From positions 2,480,001 through 2,544,000 of the forward strand of contig CP080408.1 of assembly GCA_019448215.1 (NCBI GenBank): a stretch of 64,000 nt of DNA, written 5' to 3'. The translations under genes were made by a program, and so were the position numbers. The notes beneath the pieces were generated by a model, which saw nothing but the letters and a program-made list of their open reading frames with translations, searched no databases and had not been told where the DNA came from. The stretch's first letter is position 1. Each line of letters opens with the position of its first letter. Shown here piece by piece: positions 57,224 to 64,000 of the stretch. The stretch is from Thalassovita mediterranea (GTDB lineage: Bacteria > Pseudomonadota > Alphaproteobacteria > Caulobacterales > Hyphomonadaceae).

Positions 57224-57279
57224 CGCCGCGCCCGAAAGTCTCCCCCGTTCCAGAGCCAAATCTGTGGACAATCCAGACT

Positions 57280-57303
57280 GGGCCGCCTCGTGCGGCCCTT
57301 TTT
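57280..57303 (+). terminator. Rho-independent terminator
   Basis: GGGCCGC-CTCGT-GCGGCCC followed directly by TTTTT, 57 bases after the propeller lipoprotein stop. Confidence 0.9.
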
Positions 57304-57469
57304 GTTATGTGGGTAAAGAGATTTTGAAGTGCTTGCGGACGTCGCTTGGCGACATGGGTAGTCGAGATAAAGCCCCGAGCGCCTGCTTTTCGATAGGTAT
57401 TCTATCGAAGCAAGAGCGAGCGTGTTCGAATATGAGCGAATACATGAGTATTCTGTATTTATTCGTGTG

Positions 57470-57485
57470 TGTCACGTCCGTGACA
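57470..57485. promoter_or_regulatory. Candidate operator palindrome
   Basis: TGTCACGTCCGTGACA is a perfect 7-bp inverted repeat with a two-base centre, about 135 bases before the lipoprotein start. The symmetry suits a dimeric regulator. It is not a Pho box (which uses direct repeats) and does not match a CRP/FNR site well. Confidence 0.5.
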
Positions 57486-57618
57486 GTCGTGTGAAGCTTT
57501 TGTGATGTCGCATTACTGTCTTTGAGGTGTGTCATAGCGCCCCCGAGATCGGGAGTCGGCAGGGGCTGAGTTTCCGATCCACGTGATTGAACTCAGTTAA
57601 CCCTGAAGGGGGCTTCTT

Positions 57619-60498
57619 ATGAAAAAGGCGAACACCTTGCGTCTGGCTTTCACGACGAGCGTTCTCGCGCTCGCCGTTGCGGCCTGTTCGGACACCAGCA
57701 TTTCTTCACCTGGCGCTCCGGCCGTTCCTCCACCACCTCCGCCGCCAACTTCGCCGCCCCCACCACCTCCGCCATCTTCCACCATCCAGCTTGTTCCAGC
57801 TGCTGGCTGCCCGACCGGCACGACTTCAATCACGCTGCCAGCGATCGCCTCTGAGGGCTTCTCCAGCATGGACGTGTGCGCCATTGGCGACGCAGCTGGC
57901 TCGAACACCACGATCACCCAGGATGTGAACATCCCGGCCGGCGTCGCTGTCGCTATCCGCGGCGCTGTGTTCATCGGTGAAGACGGTGGCACCTCTGCAA
58001 CCCTGACCATCGGTGAAGGCGCGCGCCTCTTCGGTGCTGCTGTCGACGGCACGGGCGACGGCTCCGACGACTACATCGTCATCAACCGTGGTTCGCAGAT
58101 CGATGTGAACGGCACAGAGACCGGCGTCGTCCGCATGACGGCCCGCGCGGCCATCAACGATGAGGAAGTCGGCTCCAGCCTGATCGACAATTCGACCAAC
58201 GCACAGTGGGGTGGCCTGATCATCAACGGTTCTGCGCCGATCAACGCCTGTATCGACTCCACCGCGACCGGTGGCACGGCAAGCTGTGAGAAGTCTGGCG
58301 AAGGCGCTTCGGGCCTCTTCGGCGGCGCTGACGCCGACGACGACTCCGGTGAGATCAACTATCTCAGCGTCGAGTTCGCAGGCGCACGCCTGACCAATGA
58401 AGACGAGCTCAACGGCATTGCCTTCCAAGGTGTTGGCAACGCAACCGAAGTCTCCCACGTCCAGGTCCACAACAACCTCGATGACGGCATCGAATGGTTC
58501 GGTGGCACCGTGAACGCACGCTACGTCGTAGTGACGGGCGCTGGCGACGATTCGCTGGACTGGACCGATGGCTGGCAGGGCAACCTGCAATACGCGGTCG
58601 TCTACTCTGACGTGCCATCTTCTGGCGACCCGCGCGGCATCGAGGCCGACAACCGCGACGGCGACAATGACAAGACGCCATTCTCGGCGCCGAACCTGTC
58701 AAACTTCACGCTCATCGGCACCCAGGGCAATCAGGCAGGTATCCTGCTTCGCCGTGGTACCCGCGGTACCGTGGTCAACGGCATCGTTTCGGGCGGCTTC
58801 ACGCCAGGCCTCGATATCGATAGCGGCCAGACTTACACCAACCTGAACGATGGCACGCTGACCGTTGCTTCGCTCTTCATTGATGCAGCCCAGACGCTCG
58901 CAACCGATAGCGATGACGGCCCGCTGCCAGCATACGCTGCAGCCAACAATATCCGTGGCGGCGAGAACTCCCTGCAGAACCGGTTCTTCCCGGGCACGCA
59001 GGAGCAGAACGTTCCGCGTTCGAACGCGCTGAATGGCAATGCCTTCTTCGACAACGTCAACTATGTCGGCGCGTTTTCTGCCAATGAGACGGTCTCCAAC
59101 AACTGGGCGAATTTCGCCAAGACCGGCACGCTGTTCGCGCCAGTTGGTTGCCCGACCGGCACGACTGAGAGTGGCACGCTTGACGGCAAGACGCTCTGTC
59201 TGGTCCCGGGCGGTAACCTGACCTCGAACCTCACCCTCTCCAATGGCGACCAGCTCATCTATGAGCTCGACGGTGTTGTGGGTGTCGGTGTCGACCTTGG
59301 TCCAGACCCTGCTTCGCCAGTGCCGGGCGGCGTCTCCGCAACGCTCACCATCGAGCCGGGTGTTACGGTTGTCGGTGCTGACGCCGACGCGTACCTCATC
59401 GTTCGCCGCGGTTCGCGCCTTGTGACCAACGGCACGGCAAACGCGCCTGTGGTGTTCACCGCGAAGAGCGCGATTGAAAACCCATCCACGATCGAAGCGT
59501 CCACCAAGGGTATCTGGGGCGGTATCGTCATCAATGGCCGCGCGCCGATCAACGCCTGTATCGACGCTGGCGCAACCGGCGGCACGGTCAGCTGTGAGAA
59601 GTCCGGTGAAGGTGCCTCTGGCCTCTTCGGCGGCGCCACCGCAAACGATGACAGCGGCCGTCTTCGCTACACCCGCGTCCAGTATGCCGGTACCCGCCTC
59701 ACCAATGAAGACGAGCTCAACGGCATCGCCTTCCAGGGCGTCGGCAGCGGCACGGAAGTCAGCTATGTTCAGGTTGCCAACAACCTTGACGATGGCATCG
59801 AATGGTTCGGCGGCACGGTCTCTGCTGACCACGTGGTCGTGACCGGTGTCGGCGACGACTCCCTCGACTGGACCGATGGCTGGACGGGCTCCGTGCAGTA
59901 CGCGATCGTCTATCCGGGCGTCTCGCCAGACATGTCGGGTGACCCGCGCGGCATCGAAGCTGACAACCGTGACGGCGACAATGACAAGACGCCATTCTCG
60001 GCGCCGAACCTGTCGAACTTCACGCTGATCAATTCCGGTGACGCAGCCACCCAGCAGGGTGTCCTCCTTCGCCGGGGTACGCGCGGCGTGATCGCTAACG
60101 GCATCATCGCTGACTGGTCAGTTGGCCTCGATGTCGACAGCTCACAGACCTACACCAACTTCGGTGACGGTACGCTGCGCATCAAGTCGCTCTTCCTCGA
60201 CAATGCCGAGAACTTCGCGACCGATAGCGACCGCCCAGGTGGCACGAACGAAGGCACGCCTGCTTTCGCAGCTGGCGACAACATCGTCACCGGCACCAAC
60301 AGCCTCAGCGGCTTCACCTTCGTGCCGAACGCAACCGGTGTCGTGCCGGGCAGCGCAGAGCTTGGTGTGACGCCGTTCGCAGTCGGCGGGATCGGCAACC
60401 TCCAGACCACCACGCACATCGGTGCCGTTGCGAACGCAAACGACACCTGGTTCCGCGGCTGGACGGTCGACATCACGGGTGCCGAAACCACCAACTAG
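57619..60498 (+). CDS. Large lipoprotein with duplicated beta-helix-like module
   Basis: A 959-residue surface lipoprotein. Lipobox VAAC with Cys23 and Ser at +2, then a polyproline linker (about 33-54). The rest is two copies of one module of roughly 420-450 residues (about 60-490 and 510-959). Each contains a Cys pair (NACIDS/AGATGGT...SCEKSGEGASGLFGG), NEDELNGIAFQGVG, NNLDDGIEWFGGTV and DDSLDWTDGW. A 31-residue block starting GDPRGIEADNRDGDNDKTPF is identical in both. Short repeated strands with Asn/Gly/Asp turns suggest a right-handed beta-helix with possible calcium sites. It precedes a TonB-dependent receptor and gspC, so I infer a T2SS-exported lipoprotein or receptor partner. Confidence 0.85.
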   Translation: MKKANTLRLAFTTSVLALAVAACSDTSISSPGAPAVPPPPPPPTSPPPPPPPSSTIQLVPAAGCPTGTTSITLPAIASEGFSSMDVCAIGDAAGSNTTITQDVNIPAGVAVAIRGAVFIGEDGGTSATLTIGEGARLFGAAVDGTGDGSDDYIVINRGSQIDVNGTETGVVRMTARAAINDEEVGSSLIDNSTNAQWGGLIINGSAPINACIDSTATGGTASCEKSGEGASGLFGGADADDDSGEINYLSVEFAGARLTNEDELNGIAFQGVGNATEVSHVQVHNNLDDGIEWFGGTVNARYVVVTGAGDDSLDWTDGWQGNLQYAVVYSDVPSSGDPRGIEADNRDGDNDKTPFSAPNLSNFTLIGTQGNQAGILLRRGTRGTVVNGIVSGGFTPGLDIDSGQTYTNLNDGTLTVASLFIDAAQTLATDSDDGPLPAYAAANNIRGGENSLQNRFFPGTQEQNVPRSNALNGNAFFDNVNYVGAFSANETVSNNWANFAKTGTLFAPVGCPTGTTESGTLDGKTLCLVPGGNLTSNLTLSNGDQLIYELDGVVGVGVDLGPDPASPVPGGVSATLTIEPGVTVVGADADAYLIVRRGSRLVTNGTANAPVVFTAKSAIENPSTIEASTKGIWGGIVINGRAPINACIDAGATGGTVSCEKSGEGASGLFGGATANDDSGRLRYTRVQYAGTRLTNEDELNGIAFQGVGSGTEVSYVQVANNLDDGIEWFGGTVSADHVVVTGVGDDSLDWTDGWTGSVQYAIVYPGVSPDMSGDPRGIEADNRDGDNDKTPFSAPNLSNFTLINSGDAATQQGVLLRRGTRGVIANGIIADWSVGLDVDSSQTYTNFGDGTLRIKSLFLDNAENFATDSDRPGGTNEGTPAFAAGDNIVTGTNSLSGFTFVPNATGVVPGSAELGVTPFAVGGIGNLQTTTHIGAVANANDTWFRGWTVDITGAETTN

Positions 60499-60516
60499 GT
60501 TCAATCCAAAGTTCGG

Positions 60517-60553
60517 GGCAGGGCAGTTTTCCTTCAAAAAGGGCTGCCCTGCC
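60517..60553 (+). terminator. Intercistronic hairpin between lipoprotein and receptor
   Basis: GGCAGGGCAG (60517-60526) pairs perfectly with CTGCCCTGCC (60544-60553) around a 17-base loop. No T-tract follows. It may attenuate transcription or protect the abundant upstream message after processing. Confidence 0.5.
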
Positions 60554-60609
60554 TCATCACATTCTGTCGCACATTCGAGAGGGGAGCCTCTCAGCCCGAG
60601 GGGGAAGTC

Positions 60610-63309
60610 ATGAATAAACCCGCTAATTACCTGCGCTTCGCACTGCTGGCCGGTGCTTCCGCAGCGTGTCTCGCTTCCGTTTCGGTCGCGCAGGACACCA
60701 CCGCCCAGGACACGACTGCAAACGAAGAGTCCGCTGAAGAGCTTCGCCAGCAAAGCGTCGTCGTTCGCGGCCAGTTCATTCCGGATGAGAAGCGCTCGAC
60801 CTCTGAGGTGTCGAGCCTCATCGACGCCGGCGATTTTCAGGTGACCGGTGATAGCGACGCAGCCGCAGCGCTTGCGCGTGTCGCAGGTATCTCAACCGCG
60901 CAGGACCGCTTCGTCTATGTTCGCGGTCTCAATGAGCGCTATTCCAGCGCCACGCTGAACGGCTCACCTCTGCCGAGCCCTGAGCCGCTGCGCCGCGTGG
61001 CTCCGCTCGATCTCTTCCCGACCTCTGTGCTCGAAAGCATCCTGGTCCAGAAAACATTCTCGCCGCAGCTGCCGGGTGAATTTGGCGGCGGTCTCGTCGA
61101 CATCCGCACCAAGGCGGTTCCGGACGAAGCTTTCTTCGAGATCTCTGCTTCGGTGTCCGGTGACACTGAAACAACCTTCCAGGACGGTCTTCTCTATGAT
61201 GGCACCGACCAGGACTTCCTCGGCCTCTCCGGATCCGAGCGCGACATGCCGACCATTCCGGAAACCGGCGTCGATGCAGATTTCGCCCGCGCCCTGACGG
61301 ACAATTCAAGCCTCCTTATCATTCAGGAAGGCACGGTTCCGGCTGATGTCGGTTTCAGCCTGTCTGGCGGTAACCGCTATGACCTGAACCAGGACATCTC
61401 CATGGGTGTTCTCGTGGCAGCGTCCTACTCGAATGCATGGCGCACGCGCCAGGGCACGCGCGGCTTTGCCGACAGCGCAGGCACCGGCCTTTCCGAGCGT
61501 TTCAACTATGACTTCTATTCGACGGAAAACTCCGTCGATGTGAACGGGTTCGCAACGATCGGCTTTGACCTATACGACAATCACGAGGTCAAGGGCACGG
61601 CGCTCATCGTGCGGTCGTCAGACAAGGAAGCACGCACCGTTCAGGGCGTCGACTTCGACGACAACTTTGAGCGCGATGATGCGATCGAATGGTTCGAGCG
61701 CCAGCTCTGGACCACGCAGCTCGCCGGTGAGCACTACTTCCCGGGCCTCATGGACCTGAAAGTCGAGTGGCGCGCGTCCTATTCCGAAGCGCTTCGCGAT
61801 GCGCCGTACCAGTTCAACATCCTGTATCAGGATTCCGGCAACGGCCTGCAGACCCTGTCGAACGCAGCTGACACGACCTTCGGCTTCAGCCGCATCGATG
61901 ACAGCTCACGCGACCTTGGTATCGACTTCGAGCTTCCGCTGACCTTTGGCGGCAGCGATTGTAACTTCTTCTGCGAAACCGACCTTCGCGCCGGCTATGC
62001 CTATGTCGAGAATGACCGGACCGCGACCTCGCGCCTGTTCGCGATCGAAGGCCTGCCAACCTCCAGCACGCGTATCGATTACCTGTTCAATGCGCTCGCA
62101 GGCACAGGCGAACTTGATGTCAGCTCCATCGGCGGCTCCGCCTTCCCGGAGCGCTATCAGGCAACGCTTGAAGTCGATGCCGGCTATGTCGGTCTCGACA
62201 CGCAGATCACGCCGTACGTGCGCGGCGCTATCGGTGCCCGTTATGAGCGCGCGATTGAGGTCGTCGACACGCTGGTCATCGGTGCAGATCCATCAACCAA
62301 CTTCGTTGAGGCCTGTATCGAACGCCAGCCCGACAGCAGCTGTGAGCACACCGAAGACGTGCTGCCGGCGGCAACCATTACCTGGAACCCGTTTGATGAC
62401 CTTCAGGTCCGCGCTGGTTATTCCGAAACGCTGACTCGCCCGCAATTTCGCGAGCTGGCACCGACGGAATTCCTCAACACTGAAACCGATGTGAACTTCC
62501 TCGGTAACCCGTTCCTCGTGAACGCCGAAATCAAGAACTATGACATTCGCGGCGAATACTATTTCGGCAGGGACCAGTTCCTGACGCTCGGCGTCTTCTA
62601 CAAGGACATGACGCGCCCGATCGAGGAGATCAACCAGCGCACCGGTGACACGCCGAAGACGACCTTTATCAACGTGCCAAGTGCAGAGCTCTACGGCGCC
62701 GAGATCGAGTATGAGCAGCGCCTGCCGCTGTTCGACCAGTTCGGCTGGGACTTCTTCCGCGACCGCGACCTGACGGTGAAGGCCAACTACACCTGGTCTG
62801 ACTCCGAAGTGTCGGCTGGCCGCAACCCGAACGACCTCGGCCTGACCAGCGCAGAGTTCTGTGCCCGGTTCGAAGATGAGTGCGTTGTCACCAACCAGCA
62901 GCCGCTTGACCCGGAGCCGTTCCTGCTGCCGGGCGCCGGCCTCATTGAGGATGGCCGCCAGCTTCAGGGCCAGTCAGAGCATCTCGCCAACTTCCAGCTC
63001 ATCTATGAAGATGTCGACGCAATGCGTGAAGTCAGCCTTCTGGTGAACTATGCAAGTGAGCGGATCCGTTCTGGCGAGGCGCTTGCGCTCAACATTCCGG
63101 CGATCATCGAAGAGCCGCCGGTCACCGTCGATATCGTCTGGAACCAGGGCTTCATGGCCTGGGGCGGTGAGTATGAGTTCTCGGTCAAGGTCGAGAACCT
63201 GTTCGGCGACTCCTATGAAGCCTACCAGACCGCTGGCGGCGACCGCGTGGATGTCGATGTCTATGACCTCGGCACGTCCATCGGCTTTGGCCTGAAGCGC
63301 CGCTTCTAG
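60610..63309 (+). CDS. TonB-dependent outer-membrane receptor
   Basis: An 899-residue receptor with a signal peptide (about 27 residues, ending VSVA-QD). The plug domain carries FVYVRGLNERYSSATLNGSP, LPSPEPLRRVAPLDLFPTSV and FGGGLVDIRTKAVP, the marks of the large TBDR group with the RGLxxRYxxxxLNGxxLPSP signature. The barrel ends in LGTSIGFGLKRRF, with the C-terminal aromatic needed for Bam-mediated insertion. It lies between the duplicated lipoprotein and gspC and is probably co-transcribed with them. The ligand is unknown. Confidence 0.95.
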   Translation: MNKPANYLRFALLAGASAACLASVSVAQDTTAQDTTANEESAEELRQQSVVVRGQFIPDEKRSTSEVSSLIDAGDFQVTGDSDAAAALARVAGISTAQDRFVYVRGLNERYSSATLNGSPLPSPEPLRRVAPLDLFPTSVLESILVQKTFSPQLPGEFGGGLVDIRTKAVPDEAFFEISASVSGDTETTFQDGLLYDGTDQDFLGLSGSERDMPTIPETGVDADFARALTDNSSLLIIQEGTVPADVGFSLSGGNRYDLNQDISMGVLVAASYSNAWRTRQGTRGFADSAGTGLSERFNYDFYSTENSVDVNGFATIGFDLYDNHEVKGTALIVRSSDKEARTVQGVDFDDNFERDDAIEWFERQLWTTQLAGEHYFPGLMDLKVEWRASYSEALRDAPYQFNILYQDSGNGLQTLSNAADTTFGFSRIDDSSRDLGIDFELPLTFGGSDCNFFCETDLRAGYAYVENDRTATSRLFAIEGLPTSSTRIDYLFNALAGTGELDVSSIGGSAFPERYQATLEVDAGYVGLDTQITPYVRGAIGARYERAIEVVDTLVIGADPSTNFVEACIERQPDSSCEHTEDVLPAATITWNPFDDLQVRAGYSETLTRPQFRELAPTEFLNTETDVNFLGNPFLVNAEIKNYDIRGEYYFGRDQFLTLGVFYKDMTRPIEEINQRTGDTPKTTFINVPSAELYGAEIEYEQRLPLFDQFGWDFFRDRDLTVKANYTWSDSEVSAGRNPNDLGLTSAEFCARFEDECVVTNQQPLDPEPFLLPGAGLIEDGRQLQGQSEHLANFQLIYEDVDAMREVSLLVNYASERIRSGEALALNIPAIIEEPPVTVDIVWNQGFMAWGGEYEFSVKVENLFGDSYEAYQTAGGDRVDVDVYDLGTSIGFGLKRRF

Positions 63310-63377
63310 ACTGTACGTGTGAGCTGCGCAGCACCCGCGCAGGCTTTCAACACGTACCAGTTGAGATATACGGGAAC

Positions 63378-63400
63378 GGGGGCAGGTTGATCCTGCCCCC
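63378..63400 (+). repeat. Intercistronic hairpin before gspC
   Basis: GGGGGCAGG-TTGAT-CCTGCCCCC forms a 9-bp stem with a 5-base loop, ending 18 bases before the gspC start. There is no T-tract, so read-through from the receptor gene is plausible. Confidence 0.6.
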
Positions 63401-63418
63401 GGACCATTGAGGGATGGT

Positions 63419-64000
63419 ATGGATTTACAGGGACGATTTTCGCTGCCGGACAATGCCGGACGCCTGCTCGATGGCGTGCGCACCGTGCTGCAATTCGTCC
63501 TCGTCATCGTGATGGCCATGCTGGTCGCGCGCATTGGCTGGCTGCTCATAGCGCCATCGGATGCGGTGTCGTCGCTGACGGTGCGGCCGCTGCCCGCGCC
63601 GATCCAGCAGGTGACGCGGTCCAATGTTCGCGGCGATCTTTCCCTTCTGATGACAACCAACCCGTTCGTCTCATCCGGCCGCGCGCCAAGCGCCGTGCCA
63701 GACGCGCCAGAGACGACGCTGAACCTCAAGTTAGCAGCCATCTTCATGTCGACCGACCCGGCTGCGGATTCGGCGACGATCGTGACGCCCGACAATCGCT
63801 CCCAGCGCTTCCAGCCGGGCGATGAGATCATTCCGGGCACAGAACTTGTGCGAGTCCTCAGCGACCGGGTCATCATCTCGCGCAATGGCACTGATGAGAC
63901 ACTCATGCGCGGTGGCCGCGAAGCAGGCCTGTCCGTCATTGGCGATGCCGCTGAAGTTGCCGGAGAGCCTTCCACGACGGTTGCCGCGCGTACCCCCTTG
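63419..64000 (+). CDS. gspC: Type II secretion system protein GspC, 3' end outside window
   Basis: The first 194 residues of an inner-membrane T2SS subunit that links the secretin to the inner-membrane platform. A single N-terminal membrane segment (about 23-45, LQFVLVIVMAMLVARIGWLL) is followed by a Pro-rich linker and the HR domain: TTLNLKLAAIFMSTDPAADS, then ATIVTPDNRSQRFQPGDEI and GTELVRVLSDRVIISRNG. This strand pattern is diagnostic of GspC (T2SSC domain). GspD and the remaining gsp genes are expected beyond the window. The start ATG at 63419 follows GAGGG. Confidence 0.9.
   Translation, partial: MDLQGRFSLPDNAGRLLDGVRTVLQFVLVIVMAMLVARIGWLLIAPSDAVSSLTVRPLPAPIQQVTRSNVRGDLSLLMTTNPFVSSGRAPSAVPDAPETTLNLKLAAIFMSTDPAADSATIVTPDNRSQRFQPGDEIIPGTELVRVLSDRVIISRNGTDETLMRGGREAGLSVIGDAAEVAGEPSTTVAARTPL

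Follow-up and report, generated by a model that had tools for sequence, protein, structure and literature searches.

A lipoprotein and TonB-dependent receptor gene pair beside type II secretion genes in Thalassovita mediterranea: joint exchange, occurrence without the secretion system and a likely link to phosphate

In Caulobacter crescentus, the lipoprotein ElpS is encoded by cc0170, followed by cc0171 for a TonB-dependent receptor (TBDR) and by the gspC-N genes of a type II secretion system (T2SS) (Le Blastier 2010, PMC2996285). Here, we describe a locus of the same type in Thalassovita mediterranea (Hyphomonadaceae), located at the end of a 64,000-nucleotide stretch of DNA (assembly GCA_019448215.1, contig CP080408.1, positions 2,480,001 to 2,544,000; hereafter the window), in which genes for an ElpS-like lipoprotein (LIP), a TBDR and gspC follow each other on the plus strand. 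We consider it fairly likely that the LIP-TBDR pair is a functional unit, serving capture and import under phosphate starvation, and that the T2SS is not its dedicated exporter. The published layout entangled two things that are separated here, with the lipoprotein-receptor pair as the unit and the secretion system as its neighbor.

A similar organization has been named in Xanthomonas campestris, Sphingomonas alaskensis and Hyphomonas neptunium (PMC2996285), and the layout is already known in outline. Hyphomonas is closely related to the organism studied here. The T. mediterranea locus shares with that of Caulobacter the gene order, a lipoprotein with a lipobox, a TBDR gene directly downstream and the alphabetical gspC-N series. 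ElpS is about 50 kDa and is for this reason taken as one domain, whereas LIP has two. ElpS was sensitive to proteinase K, and hence surface-exposed, despite deletion of gspC-N; its release, rather than its exposure, depended on the T2SS, probably via a secreted protease (PMC2996285). Because a cytoplasmic control is described for this assay and a periplasmic one was not seen in the available text, the T2SS-independent exposure of ElpS is not settled. Deletion of cc0171 left ElpS production intact, and overproduction of ElpS went with higher secreted alkaline phosphatase activity (PMC2996285). Pairs in T2SS-less genomes and cassette exchange, both reported below, were not seen for ElpS in the available part of that paper. 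The initial annotation had cited ElpS as an analogy for export through the T2SS; the loci are in fact of one type, and only the release of ElpS was reported to depend on the T2SS.

Surface lipoproteins encoded beside a partner TonB-dependent transporter (TBDT) are familiar from SusCD, BtuBG and similar systems, and RagA of the rag locus, which has several exchanged alleles, is a TBDR. We liken the working of LIP-TBDR to SusCD and BtuBG by analogy, the evidence here being gene adjacency, co-divergence and co-exchange; LIP itself is a predicted beta-helix with no match to the SusD sequence families (Pfam, NCBIfam, E 1e-3). In Porphyromonas gingivalis, the lipoprotein variant ragB-1 is co-transcribed with the partner variant ragA-1 at locus rag-1 (PMC10525598). 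Paired alleles, and hence the exchange of a pair in itself, thus have a partial precedent, but ragAB is of the Bacteroidota SusCD type and has no T2SS context, unlike LIP-TBDR. The PUSIII and PUSIV systems of Flavobacterium johnsoniae comprise the lipoproteins FI and FII with TBDTs, FII being located in a phoBR cluster (PMC8115612). With a phosphate-induced TBDT and an ElpS-related lipoprotein modelled as polygalacturonase-like, they resemble LIP-TBDR, although they belong to Bacteroidota and no T2SS link is described in the available text, unlike the T2SS-adjacent locus here. Finally, GspN-dependent surface export of lipoproteins is known from Acinetobacter baumannii and has been confirmed for PulA in Klebsiella (PMC12802150). 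As in the PulA and InvL type, a lipoprotein and a T2SS with GspN occur here in one genome, but LIP persists without a T2SS in other genomes, and surface exposure of ElpS was T2SS-independent.

The features of the locus are as follows (positions in the window).

57619 to 60498, plus strand: LIP, ElpS-like lipoprotein of 959 amino acids, two-domain form (open reading frame, lipobox, domain comparison).
57619 to 57684, plus strand: lipoprotein signal peptide of 22 amino acids, lipobox before C23 (Cys codon 57685-57687).
57706 to 57714, plus strand: SPG motif, starting 7 residues past the lipidated Cys and followed by a Pro-rich linker.
57787 to 59076, plus strand: first beta-helix domain, about residues 57-486 (predicted structure).
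59134 to 60495, plus strand: second beta-helix domain, residues 506-959 (predicted structure).
60610 to 63309, plus strand: TBDR of the pair, 899 amino acids (Pfam plug and barrel).
63407 to 64000, plus strand: gspC, cut by the window end; start TTG at 63407, more probably ATG at 63419.
57505 to 57522, plus strand: Pho-box-like direct repeat, 10/14 against the PhoB consensus, 114 nt 5' of the LIP start.
60515 to 60555, plus strand: hairpin between LIP and TBDR (folding compared with shuffles).
63373 to 63405, plus strand: GC-rich hairpin directly 5' of gspC (folding; exact motif in 6 of the 12 relatives' loci checked).
56324 to 57220/57223: PD40-repeat lipoprotein upstream of LIP; PorE-like and CHU_0125 models matched below their cut-offs.

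The gspC frame matches the Pfam T2SSC family (E 1.9e-20), and gspD, E, F, G, H, I, J, K, L, M and N are located downstream of it, beyond the window, in the same single-contig 3.2-Mb genome, which gives LIP, TBDR and gspC-N in uninterrupted order on one strand, as in the elpS-TBDR-T2SS arrangement. Names of the gsp genes were assigned from position and length; gspC-H and J-N served as queries, and a T2SSK match confirms GspK. The gaps between LIP and TBDR (111 nt) and between TBDR and gspC (97 nt) fold more strongly than shuffled sequences (z -3.1 and -6.5). The two halves of LIP share 57.5% identity across 426 aligned residues. Thus, the initial annotation was correct on the consecutive genes, the hairpins in the gaps, the duplicated lipoprotein and the presence of gspD-N past position 64000, and its beta-helix proposal agrees with the predicted model described below.

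Homologs of LIP were found in 88 of 101 genomes (our own and 100 relatives), although some of these matches are weak and confined to the N-terminus; gspC was found in 80 of the 101. The relatives' set consisted of 80 regions around the stronger LIP matches plus our own locus; contig-end fragments (G007, G015, G027, G029, G032), weak matches (G013, G094, G097) and L061, where the script found no LIP, were left out. A TBDR gene was located directly downstream of LIP in 75 of the 76 evaluable loci, our own included, the exception being L116, a second LIP-like frame of G042. Since our genome has 22 TBDR barrel matches among approximately 3,000 genes (estimated from 3.2 Mb), this neighborhood is not due to chance. 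The gsp genes were downstream of the pair in 56 of 74 loci, and three of the other 18 (L060, L072, L074) had them upstream.

A second set comprised 80 loci in named records, being the best 80 of at least 581 confirmed matches. A TBDR gene adjoined LIP in 68 of the 74 evaluable loci (61 downstream, 7 upstream). Six named loci already in the relatives' set were removed for distinct counts; L177, from a record titled Acidobacteria, has T2SS genes but duplicates the locus of G055, from the same family as our genome, and was left out for this reason. Among the distinct loci, 62 of 68 had an adjacent TBDR gene and 20 of 63 had T2SS genes downstream, the latter belonging, where an order was assigned, to alphaproteobacterial orders and Lysobacterales only; one Sphingomonadales locus had its T2SS genes upstream of the pair. 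The lipoprotein-receptor neighborhood thus holds across lineages, as in TBDT-surface lipoprotein pairs, and the synteny anticipated by the initial annotation is strong for the TBDR but partial for the T2SS genes. For the putative homology of LIP to ElpS, the comparison covered two Caulobacteraceae loci, those of Phenylobacterium (L138) and Brevundimonas (L155), which have LIP homologs in the same arrangement; L155 has a second gspC-like frame upstream.

The pair also occurs in genomes that appear to have no T2SS. In eleven genomes with the pair (G062, G070, G077, G078, G098, G185, G222, G225, G302, G384, G457), no GspD was found over the family cut-off (five genomes) or at E 1e-80, nor any T2SSK match; other secretins reach about 90-110 bits in the GspD family search. 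In the five genomes judged at the family cut-off, a gspC match was absent too. LIP and TBDR adjoin in all 11. The lipobox and SPG motif are present in the five family-cut-off genomes and in L224, and in the remaining five the crude lipobox match of the script fell short of the SPG motif. The T2SSK model matched 8 of 14 control genomes, several of which lack a T2SS, so that weak T2SSK matches are no proof of a T2SS. Excluded from the count were G040 and G200, with T2SSK matches of 26 and 31 bits in frames of 805 and 753 amino acids, and G090, with GspK and a 303-bit GspD-like match. Furthermore, T2SS genes are present without a full LIP in G013, and metG and gspC are close together without the pair in G021 and G025, the pair being located elsewhere in these genomes. 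Among 397 genomes drawn across the phylum, LIP was found in 56 and GspD over the cut-off in 206; nine of the 56 LIP genomes had no GspD. LIP is thus not restricted to T2SS genomes.

Distances of LIP and TBDR were strongly correlated (0.95) across 55 T2SS-linked loci, some of which are near-identical, whereas the correlation of each with gspC-G was 0.48-0.55. The LIP-TBDR correlation persisted in a partial Mantel test given gspD/E/F (0.92, p 0.001, the least possible value). Among 100 locus pairs with close T2SS genes, not independent of each other, LIP and TBDR were both far in 31 and only one of them in none. In trees of 28 of these loci, LIP and TBDR fall into the same two types, A and B, and the T2SS tree requires six or more switches of pair type. 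Since the types were defined from the LIP and TBDR trees, the single change seen on the LIP tree follows from this definition; the trees are quick ones with no mixture model, and long branches meet at G036 in the TBDR tree. A pure effect of rate on the co-divergence was rejected, as the trees differ in topology as well as in branch lengths.

Two genomes of the same genus illustrate the exchange. Relative to the self score of the window, G017 scored 0.98 for gspD, 0.98 for gspE, 0.89 for gspC and 0.82 for the PD40 gene, but only 0.35 for LIP and 0.24 for TBDR; the corresponding values for G002 were 0.91, 0.93, 0.74 and 0.78, as compared to 0.34 and 0.23. Similarity of the window to both stops just past the signal peptide: in steps of 150 nt, identity to G017 was 0.79 at the signal peptide stretch, 0.27 in the next step and 0.83 at gspC. 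Downstream of the new receptor's stop codon, G017 and G002 each retain a remnant of the 3' end of a type-A TBDR gene (local scores of 77 and 52, against shuffle maxima of 45 and 39 in 500 shuffles). Thus, both genes of the pair have been replaced in G017 and G002, with a scar of the old receptor left behind, and the limits of the exchanged tract lie close to those of the pair. The spacer 5' of LIP (57250-57550) is variable even between near relatives, and the 5' border is therefore set by the conserved signal peptide only. Six comparisons covering a further five type-B loci (L037, L069 twice, L059, L044, L110) revealed no receptor scar. As an alternative to replacement, both pair types may have stood in tandem before one was lost. 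Both types were observed in one assembly, G056, on contigs C42 and C60 (L069, L200), which has a listed contamination of 6% and may be a mixture.

On balance, we lean towards LIP-TBDR being a widespread matched pair, distinct from the SusD and BtuG types, whose evolution proceeds by exchange of whole-pair alleles, while the signal peptide on one side and the T2SS operon on the other remain constant. With a minimum of six type changes across 28 loci from a single family, its specificity would behave as a swappable cassette. A literature search, which was aimed at the exchange of receptor pairs in one part only, largely missed subscription papers and wholly missed preprints, found no exchange of an ElpS-type pair; pair exchange beneath a constant T2SS is new here.

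A link to phosphate is suggested by the regions upstream of LIP. Taking the best 18-nt match to the PhoB consensus per region, with start codons set by the script, Pho boxes of at least 11/14 were found ahead of LIP at 61 of 147 distinct loci, as compared to 76 of 2940 random stretches from the same loci; at 12/14 or more, the numbers were 15 of 147 and 16 of 2940. The box in the window has an 11/14 version in G004, G014 and G020. Among the neighbors of T2SS-unlinked pairs (100 scanned of 142 candidates) were 5 PhoR and 7 response regulator receiver domain matches. In Rheinheimera-type loci (L149, L160, L166, L168), phoB- and phoR-like genes adjoin the pair, and L149 and L160 have a pstB-like and a phoU-like neighbor, respectively, all read by eye from the protein starts. 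Based on the enrichment of Pho boxes and the phoB/phoR-like neighbors of some gammaproteobacterial pairs, phosphorus scavenging is likely to be the job of the pair. This is in line with Caulobacter, where the elpS promoter is PhoB-dependent (PMC5172544) and the PhoB regulon includes the T2SS and several TBDRs (PMC11208175).

Taken together, the observations are consistent with the following scheme. Low phosphate would activate PhoB and turn on LIP, as published for elpS. Lipidated LIP would face outwards on the outer membrane, tethered by the SPG motif and the Pro-rich linker; the lipobox is seen here, and exposure has been shown for ElpS only. The two beta-helix domains may bind a macromolecule or glycan containing phosphorus, and perhaps cleave it. 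The ligand would then be handed to the matched TBDR for TonB-driven import, as adjacency, co-divergence and joint exchange suggest. The T2SS would be a separate neighboring machine in the same starvation program, probably secreting hydrolases and, in the case of ElpS, the protease that sheds the lipoprotein. LIP and TBDR would be co-adapted and swapped together as a cassette, with signal peptide, promoter box and T2SS staying in place. As both pair types occur naturally in genomes that are otherwise almost the same, they offer a testable case for the matching of lipoprotein and TBDR, for the route of such a lipoprotein to the surface in the absence of a T2SS and for the phosphorus source captured.

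Several observations weigh against this interpretation. Contact between LIP and TBDR is putative, as is any ligand, and joint exchange could be explained by adjacency alone, with one recombination tract covering both genes and no partnership required; in G017 and G002, however, the tract is bounded close to the pair. Six of the 74 evaluable named loci have no TBDR within 1,500 nt of LIP. The Pho box of the window is weak taken singly, its score being reached by 159 of 966 control stretches as well, and in Caulobacter cc0171 was reported as constitutive and a change in intracellular phosphate was not detected (PMC2996285). As for the independence from the T2SS, LIP and TBDR each retain small yet significant partial correlations (0.09-0.16) with gspC and gspG, and GspD was present in 47 of the 56 LIP genomes as compared to 159 of the 341 others (Fisher p 1e-7, which ignores phylogeny); LIP may thus be functionally tied to the T2SS in many lineages.

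The likeliest of the alternatives is a variant of our scheme, in which LIP is a polygalacturonase- or lyase-like surface enzyme that acts on polymers to free phosphate or sugar for uptake by the TBDR, and the T2SS secretes other enzymes of the same program. The AlphaFold2 model of LIP consists of two right-handed beta-helices (mean predicted local distance difference test score 87.5), and among the matches listed by VIA-align, each half resembles, with Z of about 18-22, a range of proteins that includes polygalacturonases, alginate epimerases and lyases, and phage tailspikes. Six acidic residues in each half are invariant among 42 two-domain sequences (D288, D289, E292, D310, D314 and E342; D724, D725, E728, D746, D750 and E780), and the phosphatase effect of ElpS overproduction and the polygalacturonase-like models of the Flavobacterium relatives point the same way. 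However, these matches, at 7-16% identity among those listed, speak for the fold rather than the function of LIP, and the best Foldseek match reached only E 1.8e-3. Searches of Pfam and NCBIfam at E 1e-3 gave no match for LIP, and hence no known catalytic family: of the features of polygalacturonase-type enzymes, it has the predicted right-handed beta-helix but not the catalytic profile of the family. A search against PDB sequences gave chance-level matches only (E near 1). We therefore regard an enzymatic LIP as possible but doubtful.

Somewhat less likely is that the main benefit of exchanging the pair was evasion of phages or colicin-like toxins acting on the exposed receptor, with the same ligand for both types. 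The predicted TBDR model is an ordinary plug-and-barrel receptor; its structural matches include FhuA with T5 pb5, BtuB with colicin E3, and BtuB with BtuG or a surface lipoprotein. Other TBDRs with such a fold thus serve as receptors for phages and colicins, and the six or more type changes would fit such pressure, but escape fails to account for LIP moving too, and no phage or toxin link was found, none having been searched for. Structure comparison gave no single answer as to the ligand class, as many TBDRs tie, and no PDB sequence was related to the TBDR at E 0.01.

We consider it improbable that LIP, TBDR and the T2SS form one dedicated export-and-capture operon, as proposed in the initial annotation, with the T2SS and its GspN bringing LIP to the surface to serve the TBDR: the downstream T2SS genes in the relatives, the gspN gene, the GspN-dependent precedents and the co-occurrence with GspD speak for it, but ElpS remained sensitive to proteinase K without gspC-N, 11 genomes retain the pair with neither GspD nor GspK, and the gsp genes are unchanged when LIP is exchanged. 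What survives of that proposal is the capture unit of lipoprotein and TBDR, whereas the T2SS as an integral part of it, and surface delivery of LIP by the T2SS, are unsupported. No support was found for a receptor acting as a substrate sensor for the T2SS, and the continued production of ElpS in the cc0171 deletion is no test of such sensing.

With regard to the LIP sequence, the SPG motif was considered as a general signal for surface export and rejected: in a profile search of our genome with the LIP N-terminus, only LIP matched through the end of SPG, and the 26 other matches ended at position 29 or earlier. Of 29 named loci from gammaproteobacteria, 4 showed the SPG motif by a crude pattern, whereas 8 have a GGDI-type start instead. 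The closest named record, among the best 80 of 581 confirmed matches, is from Henriciella sp. (L117), with 96% identity over the second LIP domain. The number of LIP domains probably varies from one to three; G438 has a frame of 1398 amino acids with three domain matches, and the LIP frames of L190, L132, L140 and L141 are about 1,340-1,410 codons long. In L150, a Xanthomonas arboricola record, LIP is split into two adjacent frames, and the gene order is the same as in the window.

Upstream of LIP, the PD40-type lipoprotein gene is kept at the same place in several close relatives, and a terminator-like hairpin at 57280-57298 separates it from LIP; the region as a whole was not enriched in such hairpins (5, as compared to 5.0 in shuffles). 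Among the 100 scanned neighbors of T2SS-unlinked pairs, TonB_C (4), DUF3450 (4) and ExbB (2) were also observed, perhaps representing a dedicated energizing system. Finally, a small lipoprotein-like gene at L005:4403-4939 shares 4 nt with the end of gspN and is possibly a T2SS accessory lipoprotein.

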